Shown: positions 1,955-51,985 of the stretch, one piece after another
Layout: every line of letters starts with the position of its first letter
Position numbering within the stretch: the first letter of the stretch is position 1
Source of the DNA: Sanguibacter keddieii DSM 10542
Lineage (GTDB): Bacteria > Actinomycetota > Actinomycetes > Actinomycetales > Cellulomonadaceae
Assembly (NCBI RefSeq): GCF_000024925.1
Contig: NC_013521.1
Location: 1,426,001 to 1,490,000, forward strand
DNA: 64,000 nt
Direction: 5' to 3'
The notes under the pieces: model-generated
What the model saw: the letters and a program-made list of their open reading frames with translations, nothing else
What the model was told of the DNA's origin: nothing
Database searches by the model: none
Translations under genes and position numbers: made by a program

Positions 1955-2009
1955 GCTCTGGACAACAGCCTGCGTGCAGGCACTGTTCCCGCCCGCGCCG
2001 TGCCGGGCG

Positions 2010-3017
2010 TCACGCCGTGGTGCTCTCCTGCCCCGCCGACCGTGACCTGGTCACCGTCAGGGACACCGAGGCCGCGATGATGAGCACGGACACGATGGTC
2101 GACCAGCTCGCACCGACGCCCCCGCCGATGTCGAGGACGAGCGCCATGACCAGCTGGCCTCCGACGATCGACAGGGTCAGGGCGAAGGTGCCGAGCGTCC
2201 GCACGGAGTAGGCCGCCGACACGGTGATGATCGCGCCGAGCGGCCCGCCGAGGTACACCCACCAGTCGGTGCTCAGCGGCGGCAGGGACACCTCCGACAG
2301 CCCGCCCACAGCCAGGGCCACCGCGCACACGACCGTGATGCCGAGCAGCCCGCCCACCACCGAGGCGACCGTCGGGACCAGGGGGTCGCCGGTCCGCGCG
2401 GCGACCACGCCGTTGCCGGCCGACTGCACCGAGAGGAGCAGACCGCCGACGAACAGGAACAGCCCCGTGCCCACGGCCGCGAGGACGGTCCCGGAGCTCG
2501 GGCCAGGGCTCGACAGGACCGCGACGACCAGCCCGAGCAGGGCGCCGAGCCCGGCGACCGCGCGCCGCACCGTCAACCGGATCGGCGCGTCGAGGCCGAC
2601 CCCGCGCGAGTCGAGCACCAGCCCGGACACGGTCTGGCCAGCGACCGAGCACACCGACGCGAGCGCCACACCGACGACCGGGATCCCGACAGCCATCGAC
2701 ATCACCAGGGGCACGCTGCACAGCCCGACCGCGAACCACCACCACCGCGCGTGGCGCAGCGCGCGCATCGCCGGACCGAGCCGGCCGAGCACGGCGAGCA
2801 GCAGCACGGCCATGACGAACGCACCGACGTAGGCGAACCACGACGAGACGAGCGCACCGGCGCCGCGCGTCGCGAGCTCTCCGTTGAGCTTGCCCTGCAC
2901 GGCGATCACCGCTCCGCTCGTGATCGCGACCGCGAGTGCCGTGCCGAACCGCGCCGAGCGGGCCGTGGGGGCGATGTCTGCGGGGCCTGGCGTCGGCGTC
3001 GAGGTCATGGCGCCCAT
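2010..3017 (-). CDS. DMT-superfamily membrane transporter (YdcZ/DUF606 type)
   Basis: About 335 residues forming roughly ten hydrophobic helices. Two halves resemble each other: each has a small-residue helix followed by a segment such as [14 protein letters not shown] or [16 protein letters not shown], the pattern of the duplicated YdcZ (DUF606) branch of the drug/metabolite transporter superfamily. It probably exports or imports a small molecule across the cytoplasmic membrane; the substrate is unknown. I chose the ATG at 3017 because GGAGGG lies just upstream; an in-frame ATG at 3008 is the alternative and the frame is also open further upstream without a ribosome site. Confidence 0.78.
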
Positions 3018-3130
3018 TGTGCCCTCCACGGACCGGCCCTCGTGCCCCCGCTGTGGCGGGCGATCAGCCGCGGGCACATGATGGTCGTCTAGCCACCATC
3101 CGCCCTACACCTCGACCGTCGGGAGACACC

Positions 3131-4009
3131 ATGCGCCTCGGGATCCACCTCTGGCGCTTCGACGCCGTCGAGCCGGCACGGCTGCGCGCCGAGCTGGCAG
3201 GGACCGCCGCCGAGGCCGAGACCGCCGGCGTCTCGTGGGTGTCGGTGATGGACCACTACTTCCAGATGGAGAGCGCAGGCTTCCCCGCCAGCGACCCGAT
3301 GCTCGAGGCGTACACGACCCTCGGGTTCCTCGCCGGCCGCACCGAGCAGGCTCAGATCGGCGCACTCGTCACCGGGGTGACCTACCGTCAGCCAGGCCTG
3401 CTCGCCAAGATCGCGACCACCCTCGACGTGCTGTCCGGTGGGCGCGCGACCCTCGGCCTCGGCGCAGCCTGGTACGAGCGCGAGCACCTCGCCCTCGGCG
3501 TCCCGTACCCGCCCCTCGCCGAACGGTTCGAGCGCCTCGAGGAGACGCTGCAGATCTGCCACCAGATGTGGGACCCGACCGACGACGGCCCCTTCGACGG
3601 GACGCACTACCAGCTCGCCGAGACGCTCTGCTCGCCGCAGCCCCTCAGCGCCCCGCACCCCGAGGTGATGGTCGGCGGCGGGGGAGAGCGCAAGACACTG
3701 CGGCTCGTGGCGCAGTACGCCGACGCCTGCAACCTCTTCGCGACCACCCCGGAGCAGGTGTCCCACAAGATCGACGTGCTCCGCCGGCACTGCGACGACC
3801 TCGGCCGCGACCCCGCCGAGATCCGCGTGACCATGATGCACGGCGGCGAGGAGCTCCACGCGGGCGACCCGGCCGCCTTCGCCGAGACGCTGCGACCCTA
3901 CGCAGCCCTCGGCGTCGAGACCGTAATCGTCGCCACGCCCTCGACCAGCGGCCCCGAGTGGGTCCGCGACCGGGTCGCCCCGGCCGTCCCGCTGCTGAGA
4001 GACCTCTGA
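3131..4009 (+). CDS. LLM-class F420-dependent oxidoreductase
   Basis: A 292-residue protein that starts MRLGIHLWRFD, with GGRATLGLGAAWYEREH in the middle and PEVMVGGGGERKTLRLVAQYAD further on. These are hallmarks of the F420-dependent luciferase-like family common in actinomycetes, where the deazaflavin F420 carries the hydride. The reaction is a two-electron transfer on an unknown substrate in the cytoplasm. GGGAG sits 7 bases before the ATG. The gene is divergent from the DMT transporter and stands alone; the AAA ATPase follows after about 210 bases. Confidence 0.87.
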   Translation: MRLGIHLWRFDAVEPARLRAELAGTAAEAETAGVSWVSVMDHYFQMESAGFPASDPMLEAYTTLGFLAGRTEQAQIGALVTGVTYRQPGLLAKIATTLDVLSGGRATLGLGAAWYEREHLALGVPYPPLAERFERLEETLQICHQMWDPTDDGPFDGTHYQLAETLCSPQPLSAPHPEVMVGGGGERKTLRLVAQYADACNLFATTPEQVSHKIDVLRRHCDDLGRDPAEIRVTMMHGGEELHAGDPAAFAETLRPYAALGVETVIVATPSTSGPEWVRDRVAPAVPLLRDL

Positions 4010-4222
4010 CCTGCGGCGACGGACCTGAGCCACCCGGCGGACCTCCTGCACGGTCGCCGTCCAGGGCTGCTCCGGTCGCTCGACCCGCCCGTCCGACACA
4101 CGCCACCCCCTGGGCCACGGTGCGGTCTCGGTGCCAGAATGAACCCCCGAGACCCGCCGACGCCTGCGCGCACCGTCGAGGCCGGCACCGTCCCCTGGTG
4201 CCCCGCCTCACCGAGGAGACCT

Positions 4223-6268
4223 GTGCCACCCCTTGTCCTGCCAGACCACCTCGCCGTCCTGCAGTCGACCCGGCCGCACCTCGACGTCATCGGCTCCGAC
4301 CCCTGGCCCGTGCCCGACGGCTGGTGGGAGGCCGCGCACGAGCGCGTGCGCGACCTCGTCGCCGACGACCGCGTGGGCCGGCGCACCACCGCCTGGAACG
4401 ACTGGCCCGTCGGCACCCCGCACATGGCCATCTACCTGCTGGTCCTCGGCGAACGGCTCGGCGGGTGGAGCGCGCTGCTGGCCGGGACCGAGCCGACCTT
4501 CCCGCAGAAGGTCATCGCCGAGCACCTCCCCGAGGTGTCCCGGCTCGGGGCGAGCCCGGTCTACCGCTACTTCCCGTCCGCGACCGACTGGCCGCTGCGG
4601 CTCCTCGACCACGCCGGCCAGGACGCCGAGGCACGCCTCGACGCCCTCGAGACCAGCGTCGACGCCATCGCCGTGTTCGACGACGTCGAGCCCTTCGCGA
4701 CCCGCAGGGACGCGCTCCGCGGGATCTTCGAGCGCGTCATGGACGACCGCGAGCTGCGCCTCCTGCACGCCTTCAGCCCGTACCCCGAGCTCGTCCGGCT
4801 CTGGCGCCACGACCTGCTGACCGACGACGAGCGCGCCGTGCTGCCCGAGCTCGGCGGCTGGACCGACACCTTCTCGTGGTCGGTCGCCGGCTTCACCGTC
4901 GTCCACGAGCACCTCGCCTCGACCCTCGAGCGGTCACAGAGCGCCGACGAGCTGCTCGCGTCGGTCGCGCTCGCGGACGGCCGCAGCGCGCTGCCCGCCG
5001 CTGCCGCCGCGGCGCTCGGACGCGAGCGGGCCGACACGGTGAACGCCGACATGGCCGACCGCCAGGCGTCCTTCGACAAGCAGGCGTGGCTCGGTGCGAC
5101 GCGCGACTGGGTGGCCCGCGGGCTGCTGCGCGGCGAGATCGAGGTGTGCCGGACGTGGCTCCAGACGGTGAGCCAGACCGCCGTGTCCCTCGCAGGCCTG
5201 CCGGGCGCCCCGGTCGCGTCGTCGACCCCCAGCCTGGTGGACTTCGTCCAGGACGTCGAGGAGACCTACACGGCCCGCAGCACGCGAGCCCGCAACCCGC
5301 TCATGGACGACTTCGCGCGGCGCATCAAGCCCGTCCGGACCCCGGCACCGGGGCGACCGATGCGGCTGCGCGACGGCGACGAGGAGATCGAGGACGACGC
5401 CGAGACGCTCGCCCCGGATGCCGTCGAGATCGGCGACCCGCAGGCCGAGCTGGCCGCGCTCGTCGGCCTCGCACCCGTCAAGACGCAGGTCCGCCGGCTC
5501 GAGGCCGAGGCGCGCGCCGACCGGCTGCGGGCCGAGGCCGGCATGCCCGACTCCGGGCGCTCACGGCACCTCGTGTTCACCGGCAACCCGGGGACCGCCA
5601 AGACGACGGTCGCGCGGCTGCTCGCCCGAACCTACGCCCAGCTCGGGCTGCTCTCGCGCGGTCACCTCGTCGAGGTCAGCCGCATGGACCTCGTGGGGGA
5701 GTACATCGGCCAGACCGCCCCCAAGGTCCGCAAGGTGTTCGAGCGTGCGTCGGGCGGGGTGCTGTTCATCGACGAGGCCTACGCGCTCATGCCGGCCGAC
5801 TCGCCGCGCGACTTCGGGGCCGAGGCGATCGCCACGCTCATCAAGCTCATGGAGGACCGCCGGGACGAGGTGGTCGTGGTCGTCGCGGGGTACCCGCACG
5901 AGATGACCAGGTTCTTGCAGTCCAACCCCGGGGTCGCCTCGCGATTCCCCAAGACGCTCGTGTTCGACGACTACTCCGACGACGACCTCCTCACCATCCT
6001 GCGGTCGATGGCGGCCGCGCAGGGGTTCGTGCTCGGCGACGGCGTCGAGGACCGGGTGCGGGCGATGCTCCCGCGGCCCCGACCCGCAGGTTTTGGCAAC
6101 GGCCGCTTCGTGCGGAACGTGCTCGAGGAGGCGGCGTCGATCCAGGCCGAGCGGGTCGTCGCCCTCGACGCGCCCACACCGGACGACGTCCGGACGGTCC
6201 TCGCGCGCGACGTGCCCGGCGACGTGCCTCCGGTCCCGGAGAGGCCCCGCCCGGGCATGTACCTCTGA
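4223..6268 (+). CDS. CbbX/SpoVK-type AAA+ ATPase with a long unassigned N-terminal region
   Basis: A 681-residue protein. The C-terminal third is an AAA+ module of the CbbX/SpoVK/EccA branch: Walker A GNPGTAKT at about 454-461, Walker B LFIDEA at about 514-519, then the VVVVAGYPHEM and LQSNPGVASRF segments that carry sensor 1 and the arginine finger. Residues 1-410 are mostly helical and not recognised, ending in an acidic linker. The architecture recalls EccA of type VII secretion, but no ESX gene is present. The GTG at 4223 is preferred over an upstream ATG at 4139 because GAGGAG lies at the right distance. Probably a remodelling ATPase of unknown client. Confidence 0.82.
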   Translation: MPPLVLPDHLAVLQSTRPHLDVIGSDPWPVPDGWWEAAHERVRDLVADDRVGRRTTAWNDWPVGTPHMAIYLLVLGERLGGWSALLAGTEPTFPQKVIAEHLPEVSRLGASPVYRYFPSATDWPLRLLDHAGQDAEARLDALETSVDAIAVFDDVEPFATRRDALRGIFERVMDDRELRLLHAFSPYPELVRLWRHDLLTDDERAVLPELGGWTDTFSWSVAGFTVVHEHLASTLERSQSADELLASVALADGRSALPAAAAAALGRERADTVNADMADRQASFDKQAWLGATRDWVARGLLRGEIEVCRTWLQTVSQTAVSLAGLPGAPVASSTPSLVDFVQDVEETYTARSTRARNPLMDDFARRIKPVRTPAPGRPMRLRDGDEEIEDDAETLAPDAVEIGDPQAELAALVGLAPVKTQVRRLEAEARADRLRAEAGMPDSGRSRHLVFTGNPGTAKTTVARLLARTYAQLGLLSRGHLVEVSRMDLVGEYIGQTAPKVRKVFERASGGVLFIDEAYALMPADSPRDFGAEAIATLIKLMEDRRDEVVVVVAGYPHEMTRFLQSNPGVASRFPKTLVFDDYSDDDLLTILRSMAAAQGFVLGDGVEDRVRAMLPRPRPAGFGNGRFVRNVLEEAASIQAERVVALDAPTPDDVRTVLARDVPGDVPPVPERPRPGMYL

Positions 6269-10184: not shown

Positions 10185-10342
10185 GCCGACAGTGGACCAC
10201 GAATGGTGGCGTCGACACGGCCGGGCGCGCGTCGGCGAGACGGGAGCCTCTTGTGGTCCGTGCACGGCGTCGGCATGATGGACATCATGGGACAGACCGG
10301 GCGGCACAACGGCGGGGACGTGCGGCGCAGCGGGGTGGGCAG

Positions 10343-11095
10343 ATGTACCTGACCATCGTCAGCGCCGCCAGGTTCCTCGTCGAGCACTCCGACGAGCCTG
10401 TCACGCTGCACGACCTCGCCGACCACGTCGGGTACAGCCCGTTCCACGTCGCGCGGTCCTTCGAGAAGTTCGTCGGCATGCCGCCGGGGCAGTTCCTCGC
10501 GGCGCACCGGTTCCAGCGCGCCAAGCAGATGCTGCTGTCCGGTGAGGACAAGGTGGTCGACATCTGCAACGCGGTGGGTTTCAGCTCGGTCGGCACCTTC
10601 ACCACCCGGTTCGTCAAGGTGGTCGGACTCAGCCCGACCGAGTTCCGCAGGCTCCCGCACACCCTCGCCGAGCGCAAGCCACGGCCGGTGAGCAACCGTG
10701 GGCCCGCGCGGGACGGGACGGTGATCACCGGGTCGGTCCACCTGAGCCCCGCCGCCGAGGCTGCCGTAGGACTCGAGCCCGCGGTCTACGTCGGGCTGTT
10801 CCGTCGTCGGGCCGCGCAGGGTGTCCCGATCGCCGGGACCCTCATGGGCCCCGAGGGGTACTTCATCCTCATGGACGTCCCACCGGGAGCGTTCTGGTTG
10901 CTGGTCTCGGCGCTCCCCTCGCGTGAGGACGCCCCGGGTCAGCTGGTCCCGGCGACCCAGGTGGTCGGGGCCGCGACGCGTCCCGTGCTCGTCCCCGCAC
11001 GTCCGACGTCGCTGGTGCGTGACGTGAGCATCGACGTGGCCCCCGACTGGGGCGCGCCGGTGCTCGTCGCGTTGCCGCCGCTCGCAGCCGTGTGA
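10343..11095 (+). CDS. AraC-family transcriptional regulator
   Basis: 250 residues. The first 100 form the double helix-turn-helix of AraC/XylS proteins: VTLHDLADHVGYSPFHVARSF for the first HTH and VVDICNAVGFSSVGTFTTRF for the second, then GLSPTEFRR. Residues 125-250 are a separate beta-rich region that may sense a ligand. Here the DNA-binding domain is N-terminal, the reverse of classic AraC. It is divergent from the PEP-mutase-like gene with a 158-base shared intergenic region and may control it. Confidence 0.85.
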   Translation: MYLTIVSAARFLVEHSDEPVTLHDLADHVGYSPFHVARSFEKFVGMPPGQFLAAHRFQRAKQMLLSGEDKVVDICNAVGFSSVGTFTTRFVKVVGLSPTEFRRLPHTLAERKPRPVSNRGPARDGTVITGSVHLSPAAEAAVGLEPAVYVGLFRRRAAQGVPIAGTLMGPEGYFILMDVPPGAFWLLVSALPSREDAPGQLVPATQVVGAATRPVLVPARPTSLVRDVSIDVAPDWGAPVLVALPPLAAV

Positions 11096-11105
11096 CTGGT
11101 GGTCG

Positions 11106-11585
11106 TCAGGCGTCGACGGCCGTCGACGCCGTGATGAGCGAGTGCAGCGCCTGCCCGTAGGCCTCGGCGGCCACCTCCGCGCGGAACTCGACCGGCTCGC
11201 CGTGCAGTGTGATGGTCACGACGAAGGACCCGGGATCCTCGCTCCGCTCGTCGTCCCCCTGAGAAGGCTCGGCGGCGGTCGCGGGGACGTCCGCGCCGTC
11301 GCGCACGAGCGACCGGAAGGTCGCACCGAGCAGCGTCCGCAGCTGTTCCTCGGAGGGCAGCCACAGCGTCTGGTCCATGTCCACGGAGTCCAGGGCCCAC
11401 TCCGTGGTGCCGTTGAAGCCGAGGATCGTCCCGGTCGGGTACTCGTGGACCTCGACGATGAGCTCGCTCACCGTGTAGACCACCTGGTCGAGGTCCTCGG
11501 CCTCGATGGTGAACCGGTCACCGGGGACGGGGTGCCAGCGCAGGCCGGCGAGGGCGAGGGCGCGGGCGAGATCGGCGGAGATCAT
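11106..11585 (-). CDS. Conserved actinobacterial protein, unknown function
   Basis: 159 residues, acidic, no membrane segment. The core GLRWHPVPGDRFTIE, then IVEVHEYPTGTILGFNGTTEWALDSVDMD and LWLPSEEQLRTLLG recurs in many actinomycetes in my recollection, sometimes carrying an unsupported 'pilus assembly' label; nothing here indicates pili. The ATG at 11585 is chosen since the similarity begins there. It lies divergent to the acetyltransferase at 11672 and converges on the AraC gene. Confidence 0.65.
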   Translation of the reverse strand: MISADLARALALAGLRWHPVPGDRFTIEAEDLDQVVYTVSELIVEVHEYPTGTILGFNGTTEWALDSVDMDQTLWLPSEEQLRTLLGATFRSLVRDGADVPATAAEPSQGDDERSEDPGSFVVTITLHGEPVEFRAEVAAEAYGQALHSLITASTAVDA

Positions 11586-11659
11586 CGCCCCAGTCTCGCC
11601 GCTCGGGGCGCGCCGCGCACCCGGACGAAAATGCCGTGCCGACCTCCCCGGGGCCTCGG

Positions 11660-11665
11660 TAGGGT
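11660..11665 (+). promoter_or_regulatory. Candidate leaderless -10 element for the acetyltransferase gene
   Basis: TAGGGT ends exactly 6 bases before the ATG at 11672, and no ribosome site is present; this is the leaderless arrangement. Confidence 0.45.
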
Positions 11666-11671
11666 CGCGGC

Positions 11672-12268
11672 ATGCCTGGAACACGGACCTCCGGTCAGAC
11701 CTCCGCCACCCGTCGCCCGACCTCGCCGGTGACGCTCACCCTCGTCGACCTGCCCGAGGACGGCCCGGCGCTCGTCGACCTCGTCTCCTCGCACGAGTAT
11801 CCCTTCCACGTGCGACGCCACCCCACGCGAGCCGACGTCGAGTCGCGGCTGGTCGACGGGAGCTACCTCGACGAGGACCACGCCACCTACTGGGTGGACC
11901 ACGCGACCGAGGGGCGCATCGGCGTCGTGACCCTCGAGGACCTCTCCGACGACACCCCCATGCTCGACCTGCGGCTGGTGACCGAGGCCCGCGGCCTCGG
12001 GCTCGGCCAGGTGGTCCTCGAGGCGGTGACCGACCTGGTCTTCACGACCATGCCGGAGGCCCGCAGGTTCGAGGGGCAGACGCGCGAGGACAACGTCGCG
12101 ATGCGGAAGACCTTCCTGCGGTCGGGGTTCCTCAAAGAGGCGCACTACCGCGAGGGGTGGCCTGTCGACGGCGGTGCGCCGCTCGCGTCGGTGGCCTACG
12201 CGATCCTGCGCCGGGACTGGGAGTCGGGGACCACCACGCCGTTCGTGTGGGAAGACCTCGAGGCGTAG
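11672..12268 (+). CDS. GNAT-family N-acetyltransferase
   Basis: 198 residues. The acetyl-CoA-binding region is visible as LRLVTEARGLGLGQVVLEAVTD followed by EGQTREDNVAMRKTFLRSGF, the layout of RimJ/RimL-type acetyltransferases. It should move an acetyl group from acetyl-CoA to an amine, protein N-terminus or antibiotic; the acceptor is unknown. The first 20 residues are Ser/Thr/Arg-rich and probably disordered. No operon partners. Confidence 0.85.
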   Translation: MPGTRTSGQTSATRRPTSPVTLTLVDLPEDGPALVDLVSSHEYPFHVRRHPTRADVESRLVDGSYLDEDHATYWVDHATEGRIGVVTLEDLSDDTPMLDLRLVTEARGLGLGQVVLEAVTDLVFTTMPEARRFEGQTREDNVAMRKTFLRSGFLKEAHYREGWPVDGGAPLASVAYAILRRDWESGTTTPFVWEDLEA

Positions 12269-42680: not shown

Positions 42681-43811
42681 TCAGCGCGTGGCCTGACGGG
42701 CTGAGAGCCCGTAGCGGGTCGCATGCTCTCTGAGGTACTCTCGCAGGTACGGGATCGTGAAGTCGACGTAGCCGTGGCGGACCGCAGCGATCACCCCGGC
42801 GGCGATCAGACGTCGCCGGTACGTCGAGGCGTAGAACGGTGTCACCCCGAGCCGTCGGGCGATCTCCCCCGTCGAGGACTCCTCGTCGTCATGAGCCATC
42901 GCGACCAGGTAAGTCCGGTCCACGGCAGAGAGGTCCGCGAGCGCGGTGGCGTGCACGAGAGACCCGAGCCTTGTCCGCGCCGCGGCAGTACCGTCCAAGA
43001 CCGCCTCGAGCGTGATCTGATCCTGGCTGTGGCGCCAGAGGTGGTACCCCACGAGCTGGATCATGAAGGGGTAGCCGCCGGTCGCAGCGGTCGCTTCCTG
43101 GAGCGCTTCTTCGTCGATGGTCCGGCCATGGTCTGAGATCGTCGCTCGAAAGGCCTGGGAGACCCGGTCCAGGGGCACGTCGTCGAGCTCGAACCGCGCT
43201 GCTCGGCGAAGGAAGGTCAGGACGTGGTCGTTGAGGAGATCAGAGACGGAGGACGGCAGTCCTGCCATGACCAGCGCGACGTCTCGGTCTTCGCGGACGA
43301 GGTGCTGCACAGTCGCAGCGAGATCACGGAGCTCGTCTCGTGCGGTGGCGTGTACCTCGTCGACCGTGATCATCAGCCCGGTGCCGCGACGCTCGAGCAC
43401 GTCGAGCAGACGACCTAGGTCGTGCCGCCACTCCACGACGGACGCCGGCGGAGACGAGACGGTCAGGCCTCCGCCGATCACCGGCAGGGTGATGCCGGTG
43501 ATCGATGCTCCCGGAGCCGCGGAAGGATCCAGCTCGCGGAGGGTTCTCGATGTCGAGTGTCGGAGGCGCGAGACCATCCCAGGGGTGGCTGTCTCCGCCA
43601 GCGTGACCCAGCCACGCTGCAAGGCATGGTCACCTGCCTCGCTGAGCATGACGGTCTTGCCGACGCCCCGCGGGCCTGTGAACAGAGCAAGACGGCCGGG
43701 GGCGCCAGGGCCGTCGTCGAGCGACTCGGCGAGCTCTTCCAAGGTGTCGTCACGGCCCACGAGAAGCGGCGGGGATGCGCCGGCTGTCGGCCGGAAGGGG
43801 TTGCGTCCCAT
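42681..43811 (-). CDS. Orc1/Cdc6-like AAA ATPase with C-terminal winged helix
   Basis: 376 residues. Walker A GPRGVGKT at about 46-53, Walker B LMITVDEVH near 147, sensor region VALVMAGLPSSV, then the lid ATGGYPFMIQLVGYHLW. The last 90 residues form a winged helix (STGEIARRLGVTPFYASTYRRRLIAAGVI). The layout is that of the orc1/cdc6-like or ATPase_2-type stand-alone ATPases, some encoded in genomic islands. Function unknown. It lies between ligD and ku, with three phased TTTGCA-like repeats directly upstream of its start. Confidence 0.75.
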   Translation of the reverse strand: MGRNPFRPTAGASPPLLVGRDDTLEELAESLDDGPGAPGRLALFTGPRGVGKTVMLSEAGDHALQRGWVTLAETATPGMVSRLRHSTSRTLRELDPSAAPGASITGITLPVIGGGLTVSSPPASVVEWRHDLGRLLDVLERRGTGLMITVDEVHATARDELRDLAATVQHLVREDRDVALVMAGLPSSVSDLLNDHVLTFLRRAARFELDDVPLDRVSQAFRATISDHGRTIDEEALQEATAATGGYPFMIQLVGYHLWRHSQDQITLEAVLDGTAAARTRLGSLVHATALADLSAVDRTYLVAMAHDDEESSTGEIARRLGVTPFYASTYRRRLIAAGVIAAVRHGYVDFTIPYLREYLREHATRYGLSARQATR

Positions 43812-43814
43812 TCT

Positions 43815-43839
43815 TTTGCACCCCTTTGCAATCTTTGTA
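43815..43839. promoter_or_regulatory. Three phased TTTGCA-like repeats before the AAA ATPase gene
   Basis: TTTGCA at 43815 and 43825 and TTTGTA at 43834 lie 10 and 9 bases apart, one helical turn, starting 4 bases from the ATPase ATG. They stand out in composition from their surroundings. Confidence 0.45.
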
Positions 43840-44019
43840 AGCGACCGCCTGCGTCGGGAGACGACGCGGCAAACCTACAGAGATCTCCGCCTGCGCGACG
43901 GTTGTCCACAGGGCCGATCACCAGATGTCTGGCGCTCTGAGCTGCTCTGCGGGCCCAGGGGCACCGACGCCAGCCGCGCAAGGCGTGCGTGCTCCGGCAT
44001 CCGGGGGAATGATGGGGCC

Positions 44020-45018
44020 ATGCGCGCTATCTGGAAAGGTGCCGTGACCTTCGGGCTCGTCAACGTGCCCGTGAAGCTCTACAGCGCCACCGAGGACCAC
44101 GACGTCGGCCTGCACCAGGTCCACGACACCGACGGCGGACGCATCCGCTACCAGCGGCGCTGCGAGGTGTGCGGCAAGGTCGTCGACTACGGGCACATCG
44201 CCAAGGCGTACGACGACGGCGAGCGCACCGTGGTGCTCACCCCCGACGACCTCGACGCGCTGCCCGTCGAGCGCAGCCGCGAGATCGACGTGGTCGAGTT
44301 CGTGCCGCGCGACCAGATCGACCCGATCATGTACGAGCACGCGTACTACCTCGAGCCCGACTCCAAGTCCGTGAAGTCCTACCGGCTGCTGGTCCGCGTC
44401 CTCGAGGAGAGCGACCGCGTGGCCGTCGTGTCCTTCTCGCTGCGTCAGCGCACCCGCCTCGCGGCACTGCGCGTCCGCGGCGACGTCCTGCTGCTGCAGG
44501 TGCTGCGCTGGGACGACGAGGTGCGCGAGCCCGAGTTCCCGTCGCTCGACGAGACCCCGCGGATCACCGCGAAGGAGCTCGAGATGGCCTCCGCGCTCGT
44601 CGCGAGCTTCGAGAGCGACTTCGAGCCCGAGAAGTTCACCGACGACTACCAGGTGCAGCTCCGCACCCTCATCGACGCCAAGCTCGAGCACGGCGACGCC
44701 GTCGACACCGCCGCGACCTTTGGCGAGGAGCCAGAGGAGGACAGCGGCGGCGACGCCGAGGTCGTCGACCTCATGGAGGTCCTGCGCCGCAGCGTCGAGA
44801 GGTCTCGCGGCGGGTCAGAGGAGAAAGACGGCGCGGGTACGAGGTCCGGGGCGGGGGAGAAGGCCACGTCGACGAAGAAGGCCACCGCGCGCAAGCCCCC
44901 GGCGAAGAAGACCCCGGCGAGCAAGACCCCGGTCAAGAAGACCTCCGACCGGGCCACCGCGAAGAGGACCACTGCGAAGAAGAGCACGTCGGCGAAGGCC
45001 GCCGACAAGGCGAGCTGA
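44020..45018 (+). CDS. ku: Non-homologous end-joining protein Ku
   Basis: 332 residues. MRAIWKGAVTFGLVNVPVKLYS is the bacterial Ku opening (Ile4-Trp5-Lys6 visible); CEVCGKVVDYG, DDGERTVVLT and KSYRLLVRVLEE follow, forming the ring that binds DNA ends. The last 60 residues are Lys/Ala/Thr-rich with AKK repeats, an extended tail seen in actinomycetes that helps DNA binding. Ku recruits LigD, encoded about 1.5 kb away on the other strand. The region upstream is shared with the AAA ATPase gene. Confidence 0.94.
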   Translation: MRAIWKGAVTFGLVNVPVKLYSATEDHDVGLHQVHDTDGGRIRYQRRCEVCGKVVDYGHIAKAYDDGERTVVLTPDDLDALPVERSREIDVVEFVPRDQIDPIMYEHAYYLEPDSKSVKSYRLLVRVLEESDRVAVVSFSLRQRTRLAALRVRGDVLLLQVLRWDDEVREPEFPSLDETPRITAKELEMASALVASFESDFEPEKFTDDYQVQLRTLIDAKLEHGDAVDTAATFGEEPEEDSGGDAEVVDLMEVLRRSVERSRGGSEEKDGAGTRSGAGEKATSTKKATARKPPAKKTPASKTPVKKTSDRATAKRTTAKKSTSAKAADKAS

Positions 45019-45034: not shown

Positions 45035-46813
45035 CTACTCCTCGGCGTCGGCCGTCCCGCTGTCGTCCAGCTCCGGCGGGATGTTCCGGTTGGGGCCGGC
45101 CTCGGCCGGGCGCGGCTGGTCCTGCGGGTAGGCGCGCACCACCACCAGGGCGATGTCGTCCTCGGCCCGTGACGGGACGAGCGTCCGCAGCACGTGCTCG
45201 CACAGACCGTCGAGGTCCTCGTCCTGACGGCCCTCGAGCGTGCTCACCAGCGCCTCGACGCTCGCCGTCATCGTCCTGTTGCGACGCTCGATGAGGCCGT
45301 CCGTGTAGAACAGCAGCGTGTCGTTGTCGTTGAGCGTGATGGTGAAGTCGTGCCGGTCGTGGTCCGGGATGATCCCCAGGATCAGGTCGTTCTGACGACG
45401 CAGCACCTCGACGGAGCCGTCGGCCCGCAGGATCACGGGCGGCGGGTGCCCGGCGTTCGACCACCGGATGGTCCGCGTGCGGTCCTTGAGGTCGCAGTGG
45501 TCCTGCTCGATGCGGGCGACGATGGCGCTCGCGGTCGCGTTCTGGCCGAGGTTGAGCCCGTGGATCGCGTTGTCGGCCCGGGTGAGCACCCGGGACGGCA
45601 CCTCCCCGCGGTCGTAGGCGATCGCGCGGATGATGCCGCGGATCTGCCCCATCGCCGCGGCGGCGTGGTGGTCGTGGCCGGTGACGTCGCCGATGACGAT
45701 CATCGTCGAGCCGTCCTCGGTCATGAAGGAGTCGTACCAGTCGCCGCCGATCTCGAGGTGGTCGGAGGCCGGGTGGTACCGCACCACGATGTGCAGGTGG
45801 TCGGGCTCCGGCGGGGCGGTGAGCAGGGAGTGCTGCAGCGTCACCGAGGACTCGCGGCTGCGCTCGGCGTCCCGGGCGATGAGCTCGGCGTGGGCGTCGA
45901 GGAGGTCGATCTCGCGCCGCAGGTCCGTCGCCGCGCCCAGGGCAGCGCTGACGGACGACGCCACGAGCATGAGGAACGACCGCTGGGCGGCGTCGTAGGG
46001 CCGTCGGGGGTTTCCCTCGAGCACCAGGACCCCGCGGGCGATCGCGTCCTCGGCCCGTGCGAGCGGCGCGACGAGCGTGGGGCGCGACGACACCGGGGTC
46101 CGCGAGGACCATGCCTTGTGCACCACGTGCGGCGCCGCGAGGCTCCCGCGGTCGTGGTGGGTGCGTCCGGCGAGCACGAGGTCGCCGCCCTCGGTGAGGT
46201 GGAGCTCCGCCCCGGCGATGTCTGCGCTCTCGCGCAGGACGTGCAGCACGGCGTCGGCGAGCGCGTCGATGTCGGCGCGGTGGTCGGTCATGGCTGCGTG
46301 CAGCTGGTCGATGGTCTGCAGGCGGCGGCGGTCGACCACCGACGCCGTGGTCTCCGAGGTGATGTTGAGGATGCCGAGGACGGTGCCGGTCTCGTCGGTG
46401 ATCGGGCTGTACGAGAAGGTGAAGTTGGTCTCCTCCTCGAACCCGGACCGGTTCATGAGGAGCGGCTGGTCGAGGGCGCCGGTCGACTGCCCGGTCTCCT
46501 CGACCTCGGCGAACAGGCCGCCGACGTAGTCCCAGATCTCTGCCCAGACCTCTTTCGACGGCCGCCCCATCGCGTTGAGCCGCTTGTCGGTGCCGAGCAT
46601 GTCCCGGTAGCCGTCGTTGTAGATCATCGTGTGCTCGGGGCCCCAGGCGATCATCATGGGGAAGGTCGTCGAGAAGCACAGCTGCACGGCCTGCCGCAGC
46701 GCAGGGTGCCAGGTCGAGGGTCGCCCCAGCGGCGTCTGGTCCCAGGCGAGCTCTCTGGCCGCCATACCCATCACGCTGTTCTTCGTCGCCTCGGCGAACC
46801 ACAGGGAATCCAC
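45035..46813 (-). CDS. PAS-GAF-SpoIIE (PP2C) serine phosphatase
   Basis: 592 residues. A PAS domain (about 15-150) with FPMMIAWGPEHTMIYNDGYRD and NFTFSYSPI, a GAF domain (about 175-320), and a SpoIIE/PP2C phosphatase (about 340-560) with metal-binding Asp in GGDWYDSF, VIGDVTGHDHHAAA and AEDDIALVVVRA. Such proteins dephosphorylate STAS anti-anti-sigma proteins, here probably the one at 49204. Start at GTG 46813 is supported by a TACTGT hexamer 6 bases upstream; an in-frame ATG at 46771 is possible. It converges on ku with only 16 bases between. Confidence 0.87.
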   Translation of the reverse strand: MDSLWFAEATKNSVMGMAARELAWDQTPLGRPSTWHPALRQAVQLCFSTTFPMMIAWGPEHTMIYNDGYRDMLGTDKRLNAMGRPSKEVWAEIWDYVGGLFAEVEETGQSTGALDQPLLMNRSGFEEETNFTFSYSPITDETGTVLGILNITSETTASVVDRRRLQTIDQLHAAMTDHRADIDALADAVLHVLRESADIAGAELHLTEGGDLVLAGRTHHDRGSLAAPHVVHKAWSSRTPVSSRPTLVAPLARAEDAIARGVLVLEGNPRRPYDAAQRSFLMLVASSVSAALGAATDLRREIDLLDAHAELIARDAERSRESSVTLQHSLLTAPPEPDHLHIVVRYHPASDHLEIGGDWYDSFMTEDGSTMIVIGDVTGHDHHAAAAMGQIRGIIRAIAYDRGEVPSRVLTRADNAIHGLNLGQNATASAIVARIEQDHCDLKDRTRTIRWSNAGHPPPVILRADGSVEVLRRQNDLILGIIPDHDRHDFTITLNDNDTLLFYTDGLIERRNRTMTASVEALVSTLEGRQDEDLDGLCEHVLRTLVPSRAEDDIALVVVRAYPQDQPRPAEAGPNRNIPPELDDSGTADAEE

Positions 46814-46819
46814 CTCGTC

Positions 46820-46825
46820 ACAGTA
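46820..46825 (-). promoter_or_regulatory. Candidate leaderless -10 element for the PAS-GAF phosphatase
   Basis: Minus-strand TACTGT ends 6 bases before the GTG at 46813. Confidence 0.42.
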
Positions 46826-46915
46826 GTGGAGCCGGGGGACAGCAGCGACGCGGCAGGTCGTGCCACGCCGTACGCCGTCCACAGGTGCCCGGTCGCGTGG
46901 CAGGCGGGCCAGGCC

Positions 46916-46921
46916 TAGCGT
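46916..46921 (+). promoter_or_regulatory. Candidate -10 element for the diiron protein/CDGSH operon
   Basis: TAGCGT fits TANNNT; transcription would start near 46928, giving a 30-base leader that contains CGGAG before the GTG at 46958. Confidence 0.35.
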
Positions 46922-46957
46922 CATGAACAACGTCCGCCCACCTCACCGGAGATCTCA

Positions 46958-48040
46958 GTGAACCCTGCAGCACCCACCGTCCGCGGCGGGGCGAGCCGCC
47001 ACCCGCTCCCCGCCCCCCGTGGGCCGGTCAGCGAGGCGCTGCTCGCGCTCCTCGTGCTCGACCCCACTGACGGCGCCGACACCGGGGCCGCGAGCGAGCG
47101 GCTGCGGCAGGCCGTGGACGCAGCTCCGTCGCTGTCCGACCCGGAGGTCCACCTGACCGAGGACGACGACGTCCAGATCACCCTGCTCTGCCTCTACGAG
47201 CTGCACTACCGCGGGCTGGTGGGTGTCTCCGACACCTGGGAGTGGGAGCCAGGGCTCCTCGCGGTCCGGGCGCGGCTCGAGTCGGTCTTCGAGGCCGAGC
47301 TCCGTCGTCGCGTGCCGGTGCCCGGGCTGCCTGCGGCCGACCGTGCTTCCGTCGCCGAGGCGCTGTTCGCGATGACCTCGGAGGACTCGGGCCCGGGGCT
47401 GTCGCACTACGTGGCCCGCAAGGCGACGGTCGAGCAGCTCCGTGACCTCCTCGTCCACCGGTCGCTCTACCAGCTCAAGGAGGCCGACCCGCACACCTGG
47501 GCGATCCCGCGGCTGGGCGGAGCGCCCAAGGGGGCGCTCGTCGAGATCCAGACCGACGAGTATGGCGGGGGAGACCCGGTCGCCGCGCACGCCGCCCTGT
47601 TCGCGCAGACGATGCGCGGCGCGGGTCTCGACGACACCTACGGGGCCTATGTCGATGTCGTCGACGCCTCGACCCTCGCCTCGGTGAACATGATGTCGAT
47701 GTTCGGGCTGCACCGTCGGCTCCGCGGGGCGATCGTCGGTCACCTCGCGGCCTTCGAGATGACCTCGTCGATCCCCAACCGGCTCTACGGCAACGGCTTC
47801 CGGCGGACCGGTCACGACGCCGAGACCACACGGTACTTCGACGAGCACGTCGAGGCCGACGCGGTGCACGAGCAGATCGCCGGCCGTGACCTCGCCGGAC
47901 GCCTCGCCGAGGACGACCCGGACCTGCTGGCCGACATCATGTTCGGTGCCGCAGCCTGCCTCGCCGTCGACGGGTGGGCCAGCGCCCGGCTCCTCGAGGC
48001 CTGGCAGCGAGGCGAGGTCGCGCTCGGGTCCGCCGCGTGA
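46958..48040 (+). CDS. Iron-containing redox enzyme, heme-oxygenase-like diiron fold
   Basis: 360 residues, helical. Putative metal ligands sit at ELHYRG (81-86), LVHRSLYQLKEAD (166-177), QTDEYGGG (198-205), HLAAFEMTS (262-270) and HVEADAVHE (297-305), the pattern of the heme-oxygenase-like diiron oxidases annotated as iron-containing redox enzymes. Relatives oxidise or cleave small substrates; this member's substrate is unknown. It is not a classic heme oxygenase. The CDGSH gene starts within its stop codon, suggesting that protein feeds it electrons. Confidence 0.82.
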   Translation: MNPAAPTVRGGASRHPLPAPRGPVSEALLALLVLDPTDGADTGAASERLRQAVDAAPSLSDPEVHLTEDDDVQITLLCLYELHYRGLVGVSDTWEWEPGLLAVRARLESVFEAELRRRVPVPGLPAADRASVAEALFAMTSEDSGPGLSHYVARKATVEQLRDLLVHRSLYQLKEADPHTWAIPRLGGAPKGALVEIQTDEYGGGDPVAAHAALFAQTMRGAGLDDTYGAYVDVVDASTLASVNMMSMFGLHRRLRGAIVGHLAAFEMTSSIPNRLYGNGFRRTGHDAETTRYFDEHVEADAVHEQIAGRDLAGRLAEDDPDLLADIMFGAAACLAVDGWASARLLEAWQRGEVALGSAA

Positions 48041-48351
48041 GCGGCGACGCTCAGCCGAGGGCGCTGGGCGACGCTCAGCCGAGGGCGCTGGGCGACGCCC
48101 AGCCTGAGGCGCTGAGCGACGCAGCCGGTGCGGAGACGTCCGGTGCGCTCGTCGGGCACGACGTGACGATCACGCTGTGCCCGGACGGCCCGCTGCTGCT
48201 GCGTGGCCCCGCGACGCTGCTCGGCGCGGACGGGCGCGAGGTGCCCCGGGGCCGCAACGTCGTCGCGCTCTGCCGGTGCGGAGGCTCGGCCATCAAGCCG
48301 CTCTGCGACGGTACCCACAAGGTCAACGGCTTCCGGTCCGAGGACGGCTGA
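48037..48351 (+). CDS. CDGSH iron-sulfur domain protein with N-terminal tandem repeats
   Basis: 104 residues. CRCGGSAIKPLCDGTH holds the Cys-Cys-Cys-His ligands of a CDGSH [2Fe-2S] cluster; the preceding GPLLLRGPATL and RNVVALCR strands complete the fold. It should carry one electron, likely to the diiron protein encoded just upstream with a 4-base overlap. The first 27 residues are three 8-residue repeats of the type GDAQPRAL, encoded by 24-base direct repeats, and look disordered. Confidence 0.87.
   Translation: MSGDAQPRALGDAQPRALGDAQPEALSDAAGAETSGALVGHDVTITLCPDGPLLLRGPATLLGADGREVPRGRNVVALCRCGGSAIKPLCDGTHKVNGFRSEDG
48043..48114 (+). repeat. Three 24-base direct repeats in the CDGSH gene
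   Basis: Units 48043-48066 and 48067-48090 are identical; 48091-48114 differs at a few bases (GDAQPEAL). In frame, encoding eight residues each. Confidence 0.9.
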
Positions 48352-48459: not shown

Positions 48460-48939
48460 TCAGGACTGCTGGAGCGACTCCGGGCTGTCAGGTGCTCCAG
48501 CCGCCGGGGTCTCCTCGGCGGAGAACCGCGCCCAGATGTGCTTGGTGGTCTCGTTGACGTACCAGCCGACGTCGAGGGCGAGCTGCTGGGCGAGCAGCAG
48601 GCCGAAGCCGCCCTCACCGGGCTCGCGGCCCTCGGCGAGCGCGGGGACGCTCGAGACGTCGTGGTCGGCGACGTCGAGGAGGTGCTCGCCGTCGTGCGCC
48701 ATGAGCGTGACGATCGTCGGCGGCTTGCCGTGACGCAGGGCGTTGGTGGCGAGCTCGCTCGTGACGAGCACCATCTTCTCGGGGACCTCGTCGAGGGACG
48801 AGCTGCCGATGTACGGCGTCCCGGTGAGCTCGTGGAACAGCGAGCCGCGCAGCTTCGCCAGACCGTCGACAGAGTCGAGGACCCAGTGGTTCACCTCGGT
48901 GAACTCCGCTGGTGGGCGGGCAGACTTGATCTCGCTCAC
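48460..48939 (-). CDS. RsbW-like anti-sigma factor/serine kinase (HATPase)
   Basis: 159 residues, GHKL ATPase fold of the RsbW/SpoIIAB group. N-box SELATNALRHG at 61-71, DVADH (G1-like) near 89-93, and the G2-like EGGFGLLLAQQL at 109-120. In partner switching such a kinase holds a sigma factor and phosphorylates the STAS antagonist. The antagonist gene is divergent, 264 bases away; no sigma factor gene is in view. GAGGGG precedes the GTG. Confidence 0.85.
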   Translation of the reverse strand: MSEIKSARPPAEFTEVNHWVLDSVDGLAKLRGSLFHELTGTPYIGSSSLDEVPEKMVLVTSELATNALRHGKPPTIVTLMAHDGEHLLDVADHDVSSVPALAEGREPGEGGFGLLLAQQLALDVGWYVNETTKHIWARFSAEETPAAGAPDSPESLQQS

Positions 48940-49203: not shown

Positions 49204-49548
49204 ATGGACGACCGCAAGGCCACGAGCGGAACCTTCTCGCTCGACGAGGCTCAGCCGCACCAGTGGGCGCTCGCCGGAGAGATCGACGTGGTGGTCAACG
49301 CGCGGTTCCGTGAGGAGTGGCCGGCAGACCGCCGGTCGACCGAGCCCGTCGTCGTCGACATGGCAGGTGTGACCTTCATCGACTCGAGCGGTCTGCGCAT
49401 CCTCTACGAGGCGCTCAAGTCCACGCCGGACGGGGAGCGTCCTGTCCTGGTCGACGTGCCCGAGCGGGCCCAGTGGATCATCGACGTGACGGGTCTGACC
49501 TCGCGCTTCGACTTCCGGACGAGCGCGCCCGCAGACCACGAAGCCTGA
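49204..49548 (+). CDS. STAS-domain anti-sigma factor antagonist (RsbV-like)
   Basis: 114 residues. VVVDMAGVTFIDSSGLRILYEA is the STAS core, with phosphorylatable Ser61/Ser62 in DSSGLR. Unphosphorylated, it would bind the RsbW-like kinase and free its sigma factor. Likely kinase: 48460-48939; likely phosphatases: the two SpoIIE proteins in this window. GGGAGACTTC precedes the ATG. The gene converges on the phytochrome-phosphatase gene with a hairpin between. Confidence 0.87.
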   Translation: MDDRKATSGTFSLDEAQPHQWALAGEIDVVVNARFREEWPADRRSTEPVVVDMAGVTFIDSSGLRILYEALKSTPDGERPVLVDVPERAQWIIDVTGLTSRFDFRTSAPADHEA

Positions 49549-49666: not shown

Positions 49667-51985
49667 TCAGTCCCGGCAGAGCAGCAGCAGCGTCGCGTCG
49701 TCGTTCGAGTCCGTGGCGTGCGACAGCGCCATCGCGCCGTCGACGCCGGCGCCGGAGGCGAGCGCCGACTGCAGCCGCTCGACGCCGGTCAGGATCGACT
49801 CTGAGCGGCGTTCGACGAGGCCGTCGCTGAACAGCGCGATGCCCCCGCCCGCAGGCACGGTGACGCGCCGGGTGGCCGGGGTCGAGTCGAGCACCCCGAG
49901 CGGGGGAGTCCCGAGCGGGCGGTCCCACGTCGAGCTGTTGTCGGCGGCGAGCAGGAGCGGCGGGAGGTGGCCCGCCGAGGAGTACTCGACCTCCCCGGTG
50001 GTCAGGTCGAGCACCGCGACGAGGACCGTCGCGTACTGGTCGGGGAGCGTCCAGCGCGCCACGGTGTCGAGCTCGGCGATCGAGCGCGACGGGGACTCCG
50101 AGCCGACGAGGATCGCCCGCAGCGCGTTGCGCAGCTGGCCCATCGAGGCCGCGGCGACGTGCCCGTGCCCCGCCACGTCACCGACGACGGCGGCGAGACG
50201 TCCGCTCGGCAGCACGAGGGCGTCGTACCAGTCGCCGCCCACGCGTCCGCCGTCGGCGGGCTCGTACCGCGCGGTCACCGCCCAGCCGGAGGGCTGGGGC
50301 AGCGACGCGGGCAGCATGCTGCGCTGCATGGCCTGCGCCGACCGCAGGTCGCGCTGCCCGCGCAGGTAGAGCGCCTCGACGAGGTGCCCGCGGAGGGCCG
50401 TCGCGGAGGCGATGACCTCCTCCTGCCACGGGACGCTGTGGTCCTTGACGACCTCGCGCCAGCGCTCGAAGGACTTGCGGGGGCTCAGGCGCACGGACTC
50501 GTCCTCGAGCCGCTCGATCGTCTTGTTGTGCGGGTCGCCGCCCCAGTCGACGTCGCGCGTCGCCTCGTGGCGCAGCCACACGACCACCTGACCGTCGGGC
50601 AGCGTCACGGCGAGCAGGCCTGCGGCCGGAGAGGGCTCGTCAGGCTCGGTGCCTGCGACCGTGGCACCTGCGGCGCCCGCGACCGAGCGCGGGAGCGTCG
50701 CGACGAGGCTGTCCGTCGCGACCACGTCGTCGTCCTGCTCGAGCACCCACTGCACCAGCGCCCGGCAGCCAGGCTCGTCGGGAGTCTCGCCCGAGGTCGC
50801 GAGGTCGTCCTCGGCCAGCACGACCACACCGTCCGCCTGGACGAGGTCGAGCAGCGAGCCGCTCGCGGTGAGCGCCTGGGCGAGCGGGAGCTCCTCGTCG
50901 CGGCTGCGTGCCACGAGCTCGGCGAGCATGCCGGCGGCACGCTGCGACGCGGCGAGGCGGTCTTCCTCGACCTGGGCGACCAGGCGCAGCGACAGGGTCG
51001 AGCCGAGGAACTCGGCCGCGGCGCGCACACCGAACGGCGGCTCGTGCGGTCCGGAGTAGTGGTGGCAGGCGATGAGCCCCCAGAGCTTGCCGTCGCGCAG
51101 CAGCGAGATCGACATGGAGGCGCGCACGCCCATGTTGCCGAGGTACTCGAGGTGGATGGGCGAGACGCTGCGCAGCGTCGCGTGCGTGAGGTCGAGGGGC
51201 TGACCGGTGAGCGGGTTCGCCGTCGGGACGATCGGCGACGGGACGTAGTCGACGTCCGAGATCAGCCGGATCCAGTTCTTCTCGTACAGGGCGCGGGCCT
51301 GCGCGGGGATGTCGGTCGCCGGGTAGTGCAGACCGAGGAAGGAGTTGAGGCCCGTGCGGTGCACCTCGGAGACGACCTCGCCGTTGTAGTCCTCGTCGAA
51401 GGCGTAGATCATCACGCGGTCGAACCCGGTGAGGTCGCGCACGTGGCGGGCGGCGGTGTCGAAGACGTCCGTGAGGGACTGGACCCGGTTGAGGTCGGAG
51501 ACGGCGTCGCGGACGGCCTGGTAGGTGTTGGCGAAGGTGAAGGGGCGCGGGCCGTCGGCGACCTCCAGCTCGACGACCACCAGGGAGTCGCCGGCTGCGG
51601 CGGCCTCGCTGCCCTCAGGCAGCGGGATGCGGTGCAGGATCGCGTCCATCTCGAGCGGGGTCCCCTGGACCTCGACGGTCACCAGGAGCGGGTTGCGGTC
51701 GTGGAGACGCGGGCCGGCCTGGAGGTGGCGGCGGACGGTGCCCTCGAAGCCGGCGCCGAGCCCGTCGCGCAGCGTCGCGCCGAGCAGGTCGTCGCTCGGA
51801 CGTCCCAGCAGCTCCGCGACGTTCACCGAGCACTGCACGACGGTGAGGTCGCTCGCACGCACCACGAGCAGACACCCGCGAGGCTGCACGAGCCCAGGGA
51901 TGTGGATCGGCTCGCGCGCGCAGTTGTCGAGGTCGACCGGGGTGTCGGGGGTGAGGAGCGTCTGCCGTGGCGGGAGGCCCGTCAC
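49667..51985 (-). CDS. Bacteriophytochrome fused to SpoIIE (PP2C) phosphatase
   Basis: 772 residues. Domains: PAS 15-135 with C22 in NCAREPIHIPG, the biliverdin-attachment cysteine of bacteriophytochromes; GAF 160-340 with PATDIP (222-227), SPIHLEYLGNMGV (H278) and GLIACHH (H308/H309), all chromophore-pocket residues; PHY 345-540; SpoIIE phosphatase 548-772 with GGDWYD, GDVAGHG and DDATLLLL. It should sense red/far-red light and alter phosphatase output towards a STAS partner, probably that at 49204. Start at GTG 51985 is moderate; the frame stays open to 52093. Confidence 0.9.
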   Translation of the reverse strand: MTGLPPRQTLLTPDTPVDLDNCAREPIHIPGLVQPRGCLLVVRASDLTVVQCSVNVAELLGRPSDDLLGATLRDGLGAGFEGTVRRHLQAGPRLHDRNPLLVTVEVQGTPLEMDAILHRIPLPEGSEAAAAGDSLVVVELEVADGPRPFTFANTYQAVRDAVSDLNRVQSLTDVFDTAARHVRDLTGFDRVMIYAFDEDYNGEVVSEVHRTGLNSFLGLHYPATDIPAQARALYEKNWIRLISDVDYVPSPIVPTANPLTGQPLDLTHATLRSVSPIHLEYLGNMGVRASMSISLLRDGKLWGLIACHHYSGPHEPPFGVRAAAEFLGSTLSLRLVAQVEEDRLAASQRAAGMLAELVARSRDEELPLAQALTASGSLLDLVQADGVVVLAEDDLATSGETPDEPGCRALVQWVLEQDDDVVATDSLVATLPRSVAGAAGATVAGTEPDEPSPAAGLLAVTLPDGQVVVWLRHEATRDVDWGGDPHNKTIERLEDESVRLSPRKSFERWREVVKDHSVPWQEEVIASATALRGHLVEALYLRGQRDLRSAQAMQRSMLPASLPQPSGWAVTARYEPADGGRVGGDWYDALVLPSGRLAAVVGDVAGHGHVAAASMGQLRNALRAILVGSESPSRSIAELDTVARWTLPDQYATVLVAVLDLTTGEVEYSSAGHLPPLLLAADNSSTWDRPLGTPPLGVLDSTPATRRVTVPAGGGIALFSDGLVERRSESILTGVERLQSALASGAGVDGAMALSHATDSNDDATLLLLCRD

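Follow-up and report, generated by a model that had tools for sequence, protein, structure and literature searches.

Domain organisation of the phytochrome-phosphatase gene

The genome of Sanguibacter keddieii DSM 10542 (Cellulomonadaceae) is a single contig of 4,253,413 bp (NC_013521.1); the 64,000-nucleotide stretch between its positions 1,426,001 and 1,490,000, here called the window, contains a minus-strand gene that joins a phytochrome sensor to a SpoIIE-type PP2C phosphatase, with genes for a STAS protein and an RsbW-like HATPase close by (Table 1, numbered from the first letter of the window). S. keddieii ST-74T is an isolate from cow blood (PMC3035225). In the open reading frame (ORF), which stops at 49667, the GTG at 51985 is the sole in-frame start between an upstream GTG (52093) and the putative chromophore-binding cysteine; read from this codon, the product has 772 residues and carries C22 inside NCAREPIHIPG.

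Table 1. Features of the phytochrome-phosphatase locus, in window coordinates
Feature	Position	Strand	Evidence
Phytochrome-SpoIIE (PP2C) phosphatase gene	49667..51985	-	772 aa, GTG start; ORF, motifs, Pfam, full-length relatives
Cys22 codon, predicted biliverdin attachment site	51920..51922	-	C in 99/107 family proteins (gaps counted as misses)
PAS_2 domain, residues 22-120	51626..51922	-	Pfam (1.7e-19)
GAF domain, residues 171-330, bilin pocket	50996..51475	-	Pfam (1e-17), motifs, family alignment
PHY domain, residues 355-539, with WGG/PRKSF tongue	50369..50923	-	Pfam (4.9e-39), motifs, AlphaFold2
Continuous signalling helix from PHY to phosphatase, residues 522-557	50315..50422	-	AlphaFold2, family alignments
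SpoIIE/PP2C phosphatase domain, residues ~561-771	49673..50305	-	Pfam (593-771, 2.5e-36), alignment, structure-sequence match
STAS anti-sigma-antagonist-like protein, proposed substrate	49204..49548	+	FIDSSGL phospho-acceptor motif; STAS 2.5e-10
RsbW-like HATPase, proposed STAS kinase	48460..48939	-	Profile searches; divergent from STAS gene

All four Pfam domains exceed their gathering scores, with PAS_2, GAF and PHY in that order and SpoIIE (PF07228) reaching 125.9 bits against a cut-off of 25. The motifs of a phytochrome are in place, namely NCAREPIHIPG, PATDIP, SPIHLEY and ACHH, together with WGG and PRKSF of the tongue, and the bilin pocket of the GAF domain comprises D225, Y234, R240, R272, H278, Y281, S290, S292, H308 and H309. 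In plant- and cyanobacterial-type phytochromes a cysteine follows the SP dipeptide; here the residue is isoleucine, and the protein is therefore of the biliverdin type. It scores 346.7 bits (residues 15-539) against the NCBIfam equivalog NF041576 for BphP, whose cut-off is 1040, and is thus not a member of that equivalog.

Canonical bacteriophytochromes end in a histidine kinase. The window protein shares with DrBphP, Agp1 and PsBphP the PAS-GAF-PHY core, the N-terminal cysteine, the DIP and PRxSF motifs and the fold; unlike them, its core ends in a PP2C phosphatase, with the aspartates D585, D588, D603, D721, D762 and D763 distributed over GGDWYD, GDVAGHG, FSDGL and NDDAT. In Bacillus subtilis SpoIIE the metal-binding aspartates are D628, D746 and D795 (PMC5468089), to which some of these residues would correspond as judged by reading the motifs. 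An initial sequence-only reading, made from the letters and their translated frames, had proposed a red-light-sensing phosphatase at this locus; its gene coordinates, start codon, cysteine number and four pocket motifs proved right, as did the start of the STAS ORF at 49204, and the domains that it expected were each recovered over the Pfam cut-off. The protein is thus well supported as a predicted chromophore-competent phytochrome with a PP2C output in place of the kinase.

Distribution and residue conservation

Nearly full-length matches occur in four of the six genomes of the genus, and 107 of 200 genomes of the family match at E <= 1e-80, spread over 13 of 25 genera. The query is spanned almost entirely in 102 of these matches; of the remaining five, G138 is complete and has an extra GAF domain, G089 is split between two overlapping frames, G134 and G155 lie at contig ends and G145 lacks the N-terminus. 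In a sample of the class, 21 of 296 genomes match at E <= 1e-100, the window genome and one family member included. Among named genomes, 21 of 60 loci (L036-L056) have the phosphatase, in Cellulomonas, Blastococcus, Parafrankia, Luteimicrobium, Aeromicrobium, Nocardioides, Geodermatophilus and others, while in the other 39 the match does not extend past query residue 573 and stops short of the phosphatase motifs; S. inulinus is the closest named relative (85%).

All 107 family matches were obtained as protein. C22 and H278 are both intact in 99 of the 106 that can be scored for them, G145 having kept the pocket histidine, and the six phosphatase aspartates are found in every copy that reaches them (103-104 of 107; the others stop earlier). 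An overlapping set of 91 proteins, with all 21 named relatives, has cysteine and histidine intact in 85, the six exceptions forming the degenerate clade described below; one protein of this set, L047, is without the last two aspartates. In the window copy every tested residue of the pocket and of the tongue is present.

Predicted structure and the PHY-to-phosphatase linker

AlphaFold2, run on an alignment of 36 rows (the window protein and relatives from contigs of the named genomes), returned a model with a mean predicted local distance difference test (pLDDT) score of 87.8, in which a single unbroken helix, residues 522-557, joins PHY to the phosphatase. Foldseek ranks bacteriophytochromes in the red-absorbing (Pr) state first, with template modelling (TM) scores, by target length, of 0.84 for 8u8z, 0.88 for 5i5l and 0.85 for 5mg1, so that a standard phytochrome core is predicted; because of the residues present and the overall fold, the pocket does not appear to be blocked. 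By sequence, the solved structure nearest to the phosphatase part is Rv1364c of Mycobacterium tuberculosis (3ke6, 1.6e-28), followed by 3es2 and 3eq2, both named two-component response regulator, and by stage II sporulation protein E.

The length of the linker is nearly invariant. The stretch that begins at the invariant W520 and ends with the helix measures 39 residues, and a further 24 follow up to GGDWYD, in all of the 103 family copies measured (G155, G134, G089 and G138 were left out of this count) and in all 21 named relatives, the most distant of which has 41% identity. The sole exception among the copies that have the two domains in a single reading frame is G138, whose extra GAF domain lies between PHY and SpoIIE; therefore, 103 of the 104 copies that span both domains have one PHY-to-phosphatase length. 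In contrast, length varies between PAS and GAF, where the most frequent length of a 40-residue window is shared by as few as 22 of 102 copies; the cores of the GAF and phosphatase domains are also mostly free of length change, and the constancy is thus not peculiar to the linker. Along residues 522-558 the hydrophobicity is best fitted, out of six periods tried, by one of 3.6, as expected for a helix. Such a linker fits the coiled-coil mechanism put forward for RsbU and other PPM phosphatases (PMC12143880). As a separate observation, the G138 protein corresponds to L235, positions 1480-4656 of the minus strand.

A clade without a chromophore site

Seven family copies (G007, G084, G102, G140, G144, G155 and G158; loci L107-L112 and L175) lack both the pocket cysteine and the EPIHIPG motif; in addition, the histidine is replaced by tyrosine or glutamine, and the Tyr263-equivalent by leucine, isoleucine or arginine, the residue number being that of DrBphP. 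The six full-length copies retain every phosphatase aspartate, the 39 + 24 linker and, in all six cases, the neighbouring HATPase. In a tree of linker and phosphatase (72 rows, genera g8 and g20 thinned) they fall on one side of a branch with a support of 93 by a quick method, the Shimodaira-Hasegawa-like approximate likelihood-ratio test (SH-aLRT), and are nested among intact lineages; the window copy groups with Sanguibacter, apart from them.

Loss of the pocket goes together with loss of the enzyme that would supply the chromophore. The PF01126 heme oxygenase is missing in six of the seven chromophore-less genomes (G102 has one) versus four of 99 genomes with an intact pocket; for the resulting table, 95/4 versus 1/6, the Fisher test gives p = 8e-7, with genomes taken as independent in this and the other statistics although they are related, and with the pocket loss being one evolutionary event on the tree, not seven. 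The table covers all family genomes with a match except G145. Completeness of the six chromophore-less genomes without heme oxygenase is 100% in four, 86% in G155 and 74% in G158.

The conservation of the individual domains points in the same direction. When the intact copies of g8 are compared with those of g11, g23 and g24 or with the window copy, GAF is the most conserved domain, with 77-82% identity versus 52-58% for SpoIIE; set against g8, the chromophore-less clade has 42% identity in GAF and 68% in SpoIIE, a breakdown of GAF conservation seen in this clade alone. The mean difference of GAF minus SpoIIE identity is +21.8 points over 4560 intact-intact pairs and -11.6 over 576 chromophore-less-intact pairs (G138, G089, G134, G155 and G145 were omitted from these comparisons, as well as from the tree and the conservation windows). 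Thus, GAF is strongly conserved where the bilin site is, and the window copy stands on the conserved side. Taken as a natural control, the clade therefore argues that the window copy has probably been kept for bilin binding.

Chromophore supply

A canonical heme oxygenase of the PF01126 type is encoded once in the S. keddieii genome (G000:C1:3977219-3977818, 1.8e-58), far from the phytochrome locus. Across the family, such an enzyme is present in 97 of the 107 genomes with a phytochrome match versus 47 of the 93 without (Fisher p = 2e-10). The chromophore competence that the sequence-only reading had deduced from the motifs is upheld by several lines, the heme oxygenase, the normal fold of the core, the cysteine and histidine kept across the family and the contrasting chromophore-less clade; likewise, the PP2C output replacing the kinase is well supported by the SpoIIE domain and its aspartates.

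A second candidate source of biliverdin, the PF14518 "Haem_oxygenas_2" gene (46958-48040) near the phytochrome gene, was rejected as unsupported. Its presence in three of the intact-pocket genomes without PF01126 (G162, G184 and G154) was suggestive at first; however, PF14518 is found in 120 of the 200 family genomes, including the chromophore-less G007, G155 and G158, and in the phytochrome-bearing Sanguibacter genomes G001 and G004 it lies far off or on a separate contig. Two further observations concern this gene, which is on the plus strand and encodes an "iron-containing redox enzyme": it overlaps the ORF of a CDGSH iron-sulfur protein (47974-48351, plus strand), and in other family genomes (G101, G114, G072, G162 and G192) a PF14518 gene is likewise separated by 1 to 6 kb from a HATPase belonging to the subfamily of the window HATPase.

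The neighbouring STAS and HATPase genes

The STAS gene and the phytochrome gene point towards each other and do not share an operon. The HATPase gene, which the sequence-only reading had not mentioned, starts with a GTG after AAGAGGGG; its product has the glutamate and the asparagine of the N-box and a GxGGFGL box but falls just short of the Pfam cut-off, which the HATPase neighbours at L044 and L051 exceed.

In at least 42 of the 107 family genomes, belonging to eight genera, a HATPase of this subfamily is found no more than 3 kb from the phytochrome gene, all 29 copies of g8, g11, g23 and g24 being among them; four further neighbours (G140, G144, G084 and G102) bring the total to 46 of the 106 checked. 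The loci of the 61 copies without a counted HATPase, with the exception of G155, were fetched again with about 3.3 kb per side, or less at contig ends (for example, G187, G129, G134, G199 and G195); among these 60, G138 alone gave remote HATPase-fold matches (1.4e-5 and 2.7e-4).

As to the presumed substrate, a profile search found a STAS gene beside the HATPase in 25 of the 26 loci L010-L035 and in the four Sanguibacter loci, where the phytochrome gene mostly faces a convergent HATPase or STAS gene in both sets. Other arrangements are also seen: in Luteimicrobium the STAS, HATPase and phytochrome genes are consecutive, in Geodermatophilus a STAS/HATPase pair of a different subfamily directly precedes the phytochrome gene, and the phytochrome gene of G029 is directly followed, on the same strand, by a STAS gene with FIDSSG. 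Out of 47 STAS sequences collected (two genomes contributing twice), 45 carry DS(S/G)G, many of them in the form DSGG instead of DSSG; 43 fit the strict motif, L108 and L051 have a neighbouring difference, and the two that lack the motif are distant matches. As in SpoIIAA and RsbV, the serine following the aspartate would be the phospho-acceptor. The recurring neighbourhood therefore supports a pathway leading from light to a partner switch, and it can soundly be inferred from this gene linkage, as the sequence-only reading had suggested, that light would act directly on a STAS phosphoprotein.

Proposed mechanism and alternatives

On these grounds, the window protein is proposed to be a bacteriophytochrome that binds biliverdin and acts through a metal-dependent Ser/Thr PP2C phosphatase of the SpoIIE/RsbU type, by which light would set a STAS partner switch, a reading to which we assign a probability of about 0.65. 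Red or far-red light would isomerise the biliverdin bound to Cys22; the tongue of PHY would then refold, and the fixed-length, presumably dimeric helix 522-557 would pass the change into the phosphatase, whose activity might go up or down. The most likely substrate would be the phosphorylated serine in the DSSG motif of the neighbouring STAS protein, with the adjacent RsbW-like HATPase as the kinase that phosphorylates it and, presumably, as the output of the switch, so that the phosphorylation state of the partner switch could be set by light without a histidine-aspartate relay. In this way, a single protein would probably connect red light with a STAS partner switch.

Several findings weigh against this proposal. 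The window HATPase scores 26.9 bits, just below the Pfam cut-off of 27.4; no HATPase of the subfamily was found in the 60 re-fetched loci, within about 3.3 kb per side or up to the contig end, among them all 44 copies of g20 and those of g4, g6, g9 and g25; and the HATPase is also found in genomes without the phytochrome, such as G005 and G124. The window genome contains several other SpoIIE phosphatases (seven matching stretches, its own copy included), which weakens the case for a specific substrate of the phytochrome-phosphatase. Four genomes with an intact pocket (G162, G184, G154 and G134) are without PF01126, and the split G089 gene implies that the gene is broken in some lineage or assembly. 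Finally, no sigma factor of the SigB/F/G type exceeds the curated cut-off in the genome, the best match reaching 133 bits versus 234, and therefore the usual end point of a partner switch is missing.

Some of these points lend themselves to an alternative reading, which is rather unlikely but the most serious of those considered, in which the phosphatase is indeed regulated by light while its true substrate is a STAS protein encoded elsewhere, and the adjacent pair serves the second SpoIIE phosphatase of the same gene cluster (45035-46930) or several phosphatases. The presence of that gene agrees with this view, as do the g20 copies devoid of a nearby HATPase and the HATPases of G005 and G124; it is opposed by the constant vicinity of the HATPase in g8, g11, g23 and g24, by the consecutive order of the three genes in Luteimicrobium and by the HATPase kept next to every full-length chromophore-less copy.

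Clearly less probable is that the sensor binds biliverdin or another ligand as a signal of heme breakdown, redox state or temperature, the light response being incidental. Such a role would be compatible with the chromophore-less clade, which keeps the same phosphatase without a bilin pocket, and with the fact that only eight of the 107 family genomes have a heme oxygenase gene at 6 kb or less from the phytochrome gene. However, the residues of tongue and pocket, which in phytochromes mediate photoconversion, are intact, and GAF is the most conserved domain among the intact lineages compared. It is very improbable that a degenerate or constitutive sensor leaves the protein simply as an active phosphatase: such a state does seem to exist in seven of 107 relatives, but no tested residue of pocket or tongue is missing from the window copy, which lies in the Sanguibacter group, outside the degenerate clade.

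Concerning the output of the proposed light-set switch, SigB/F/G was rejected, with no match over the cut-off; the best match lies in an ORF that by reading resembles a primary sigma factor. Of the sigma matches, L096 and L097 are primary-sigma-like by reading, L098 is of the FliA/WhiG type and exceeds its cut-off, and L099 is just under it. A link between the HATPase and WhiG would be only a guess and is not claimed here. A more far-reaching version of the proposal, put forward tentatively and at somewhat less than even odds, is that the family has a direct light input to a serine-phosphate switch that does not end in SigB/F/G, and that one clade cut off both the light input and the heme oxygenase while keeping the rest. 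If so, light-driven and light-blind versions of one phosphatase switch would coexist in a single bacterial family.

Relation to known systems

Bacteriophytochromes with a SpoIIE/PPM-type phosphatase as effector are marked in grey in the distance tree of Figure 2 of PMC9587094, and the window protein has the same architecture, a phytochrome core followed by such a phosphatase. There the class is a coloured group of the tree, for which the legend and the surrounding text give no neighbourhood, substrate, assay or chromophore-less branch. Proteins in which LOV or BLUF domains are combined with SpoIIE phosphatases have also been mentioned (PMC4844311). In the open-licence full-text literature, no paper was found that describes an experiment on, or a function of, a phytochrome-SpoIIE protein. 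Thus, the architecture was already known from databases and from PMC9587094, and what the present analysis adds are the recurring partners, the near-invariant linker and the chromophore-less clade.

With RsbU, RsbP and other general-stress PPM phosphatases (PMC12143880) the window protein shares the SpoIIE-type PP2C domain, the helical and, by analogy, dimeric linker, the swappable sensor and the probable connection to a partner switch. The sensors of the RsbU/RsbP type are an RsbT-binding domain, PAS, GAF or a receiver (PMC12143880), whereas here the sensor is a phytochrome; unlike the general-stress switches, moreover, the window genome has no SigB/F/G match over the cut-off. In Rv1364c, the PAS sensor, the phosphatase and the anti-sigma and anti-anti-sigma domains are fused in one chain (PMC12143880), while the corresponding functions in the window would be encoded by separate genes. 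The phytochrome-diguanylate cyclases of the PadC type similarly have a helical linker of constrained length between phytochrome and catalytic output; they make cyclic di-GMP (c-di-GMP) and occur with several linker lengths, unlike the phytochrome-SpoIIE proteins with one length in 103 of 104. A PadC homologue lacking all essential motifs, HmPadC+14, is mentioned as well (PMC9587094).

With its linker of almost constant length, its candidate substrate and kinase and its light-blind sister clade, this family is a good test case. Two questions become testable, in what way a single type of helical linker allows a common sensor to control kinases, cyclases and phosphatases alike, and what becomes of a photoreceptor circuit once the supply of chromophore is gone. 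The protein is also a candidate single-protein optogenetic phosphatase responding to red and far-red light.

Other genes

The second SpoIIE phosphatase of the window (45035-46930, minus strand) has weak GAF matches and, by reading, a PAS-like N-terminus, and it is also present in S. inulinus (L036). At L055, from Nocardioides zeae, a second SpoIIE phosphatase (10244-11902, minus strand) is convergent with the phytochrome-SpoIIE gene and is about 37% identical to this second SpoIIE protein of the window. At 43117-45018 on the plus strand, the window encodes a Ku70/Ku80-domain protein (PF02735), probably involved in non-homologous end joining, whose true start likely lies well inside the ORF.

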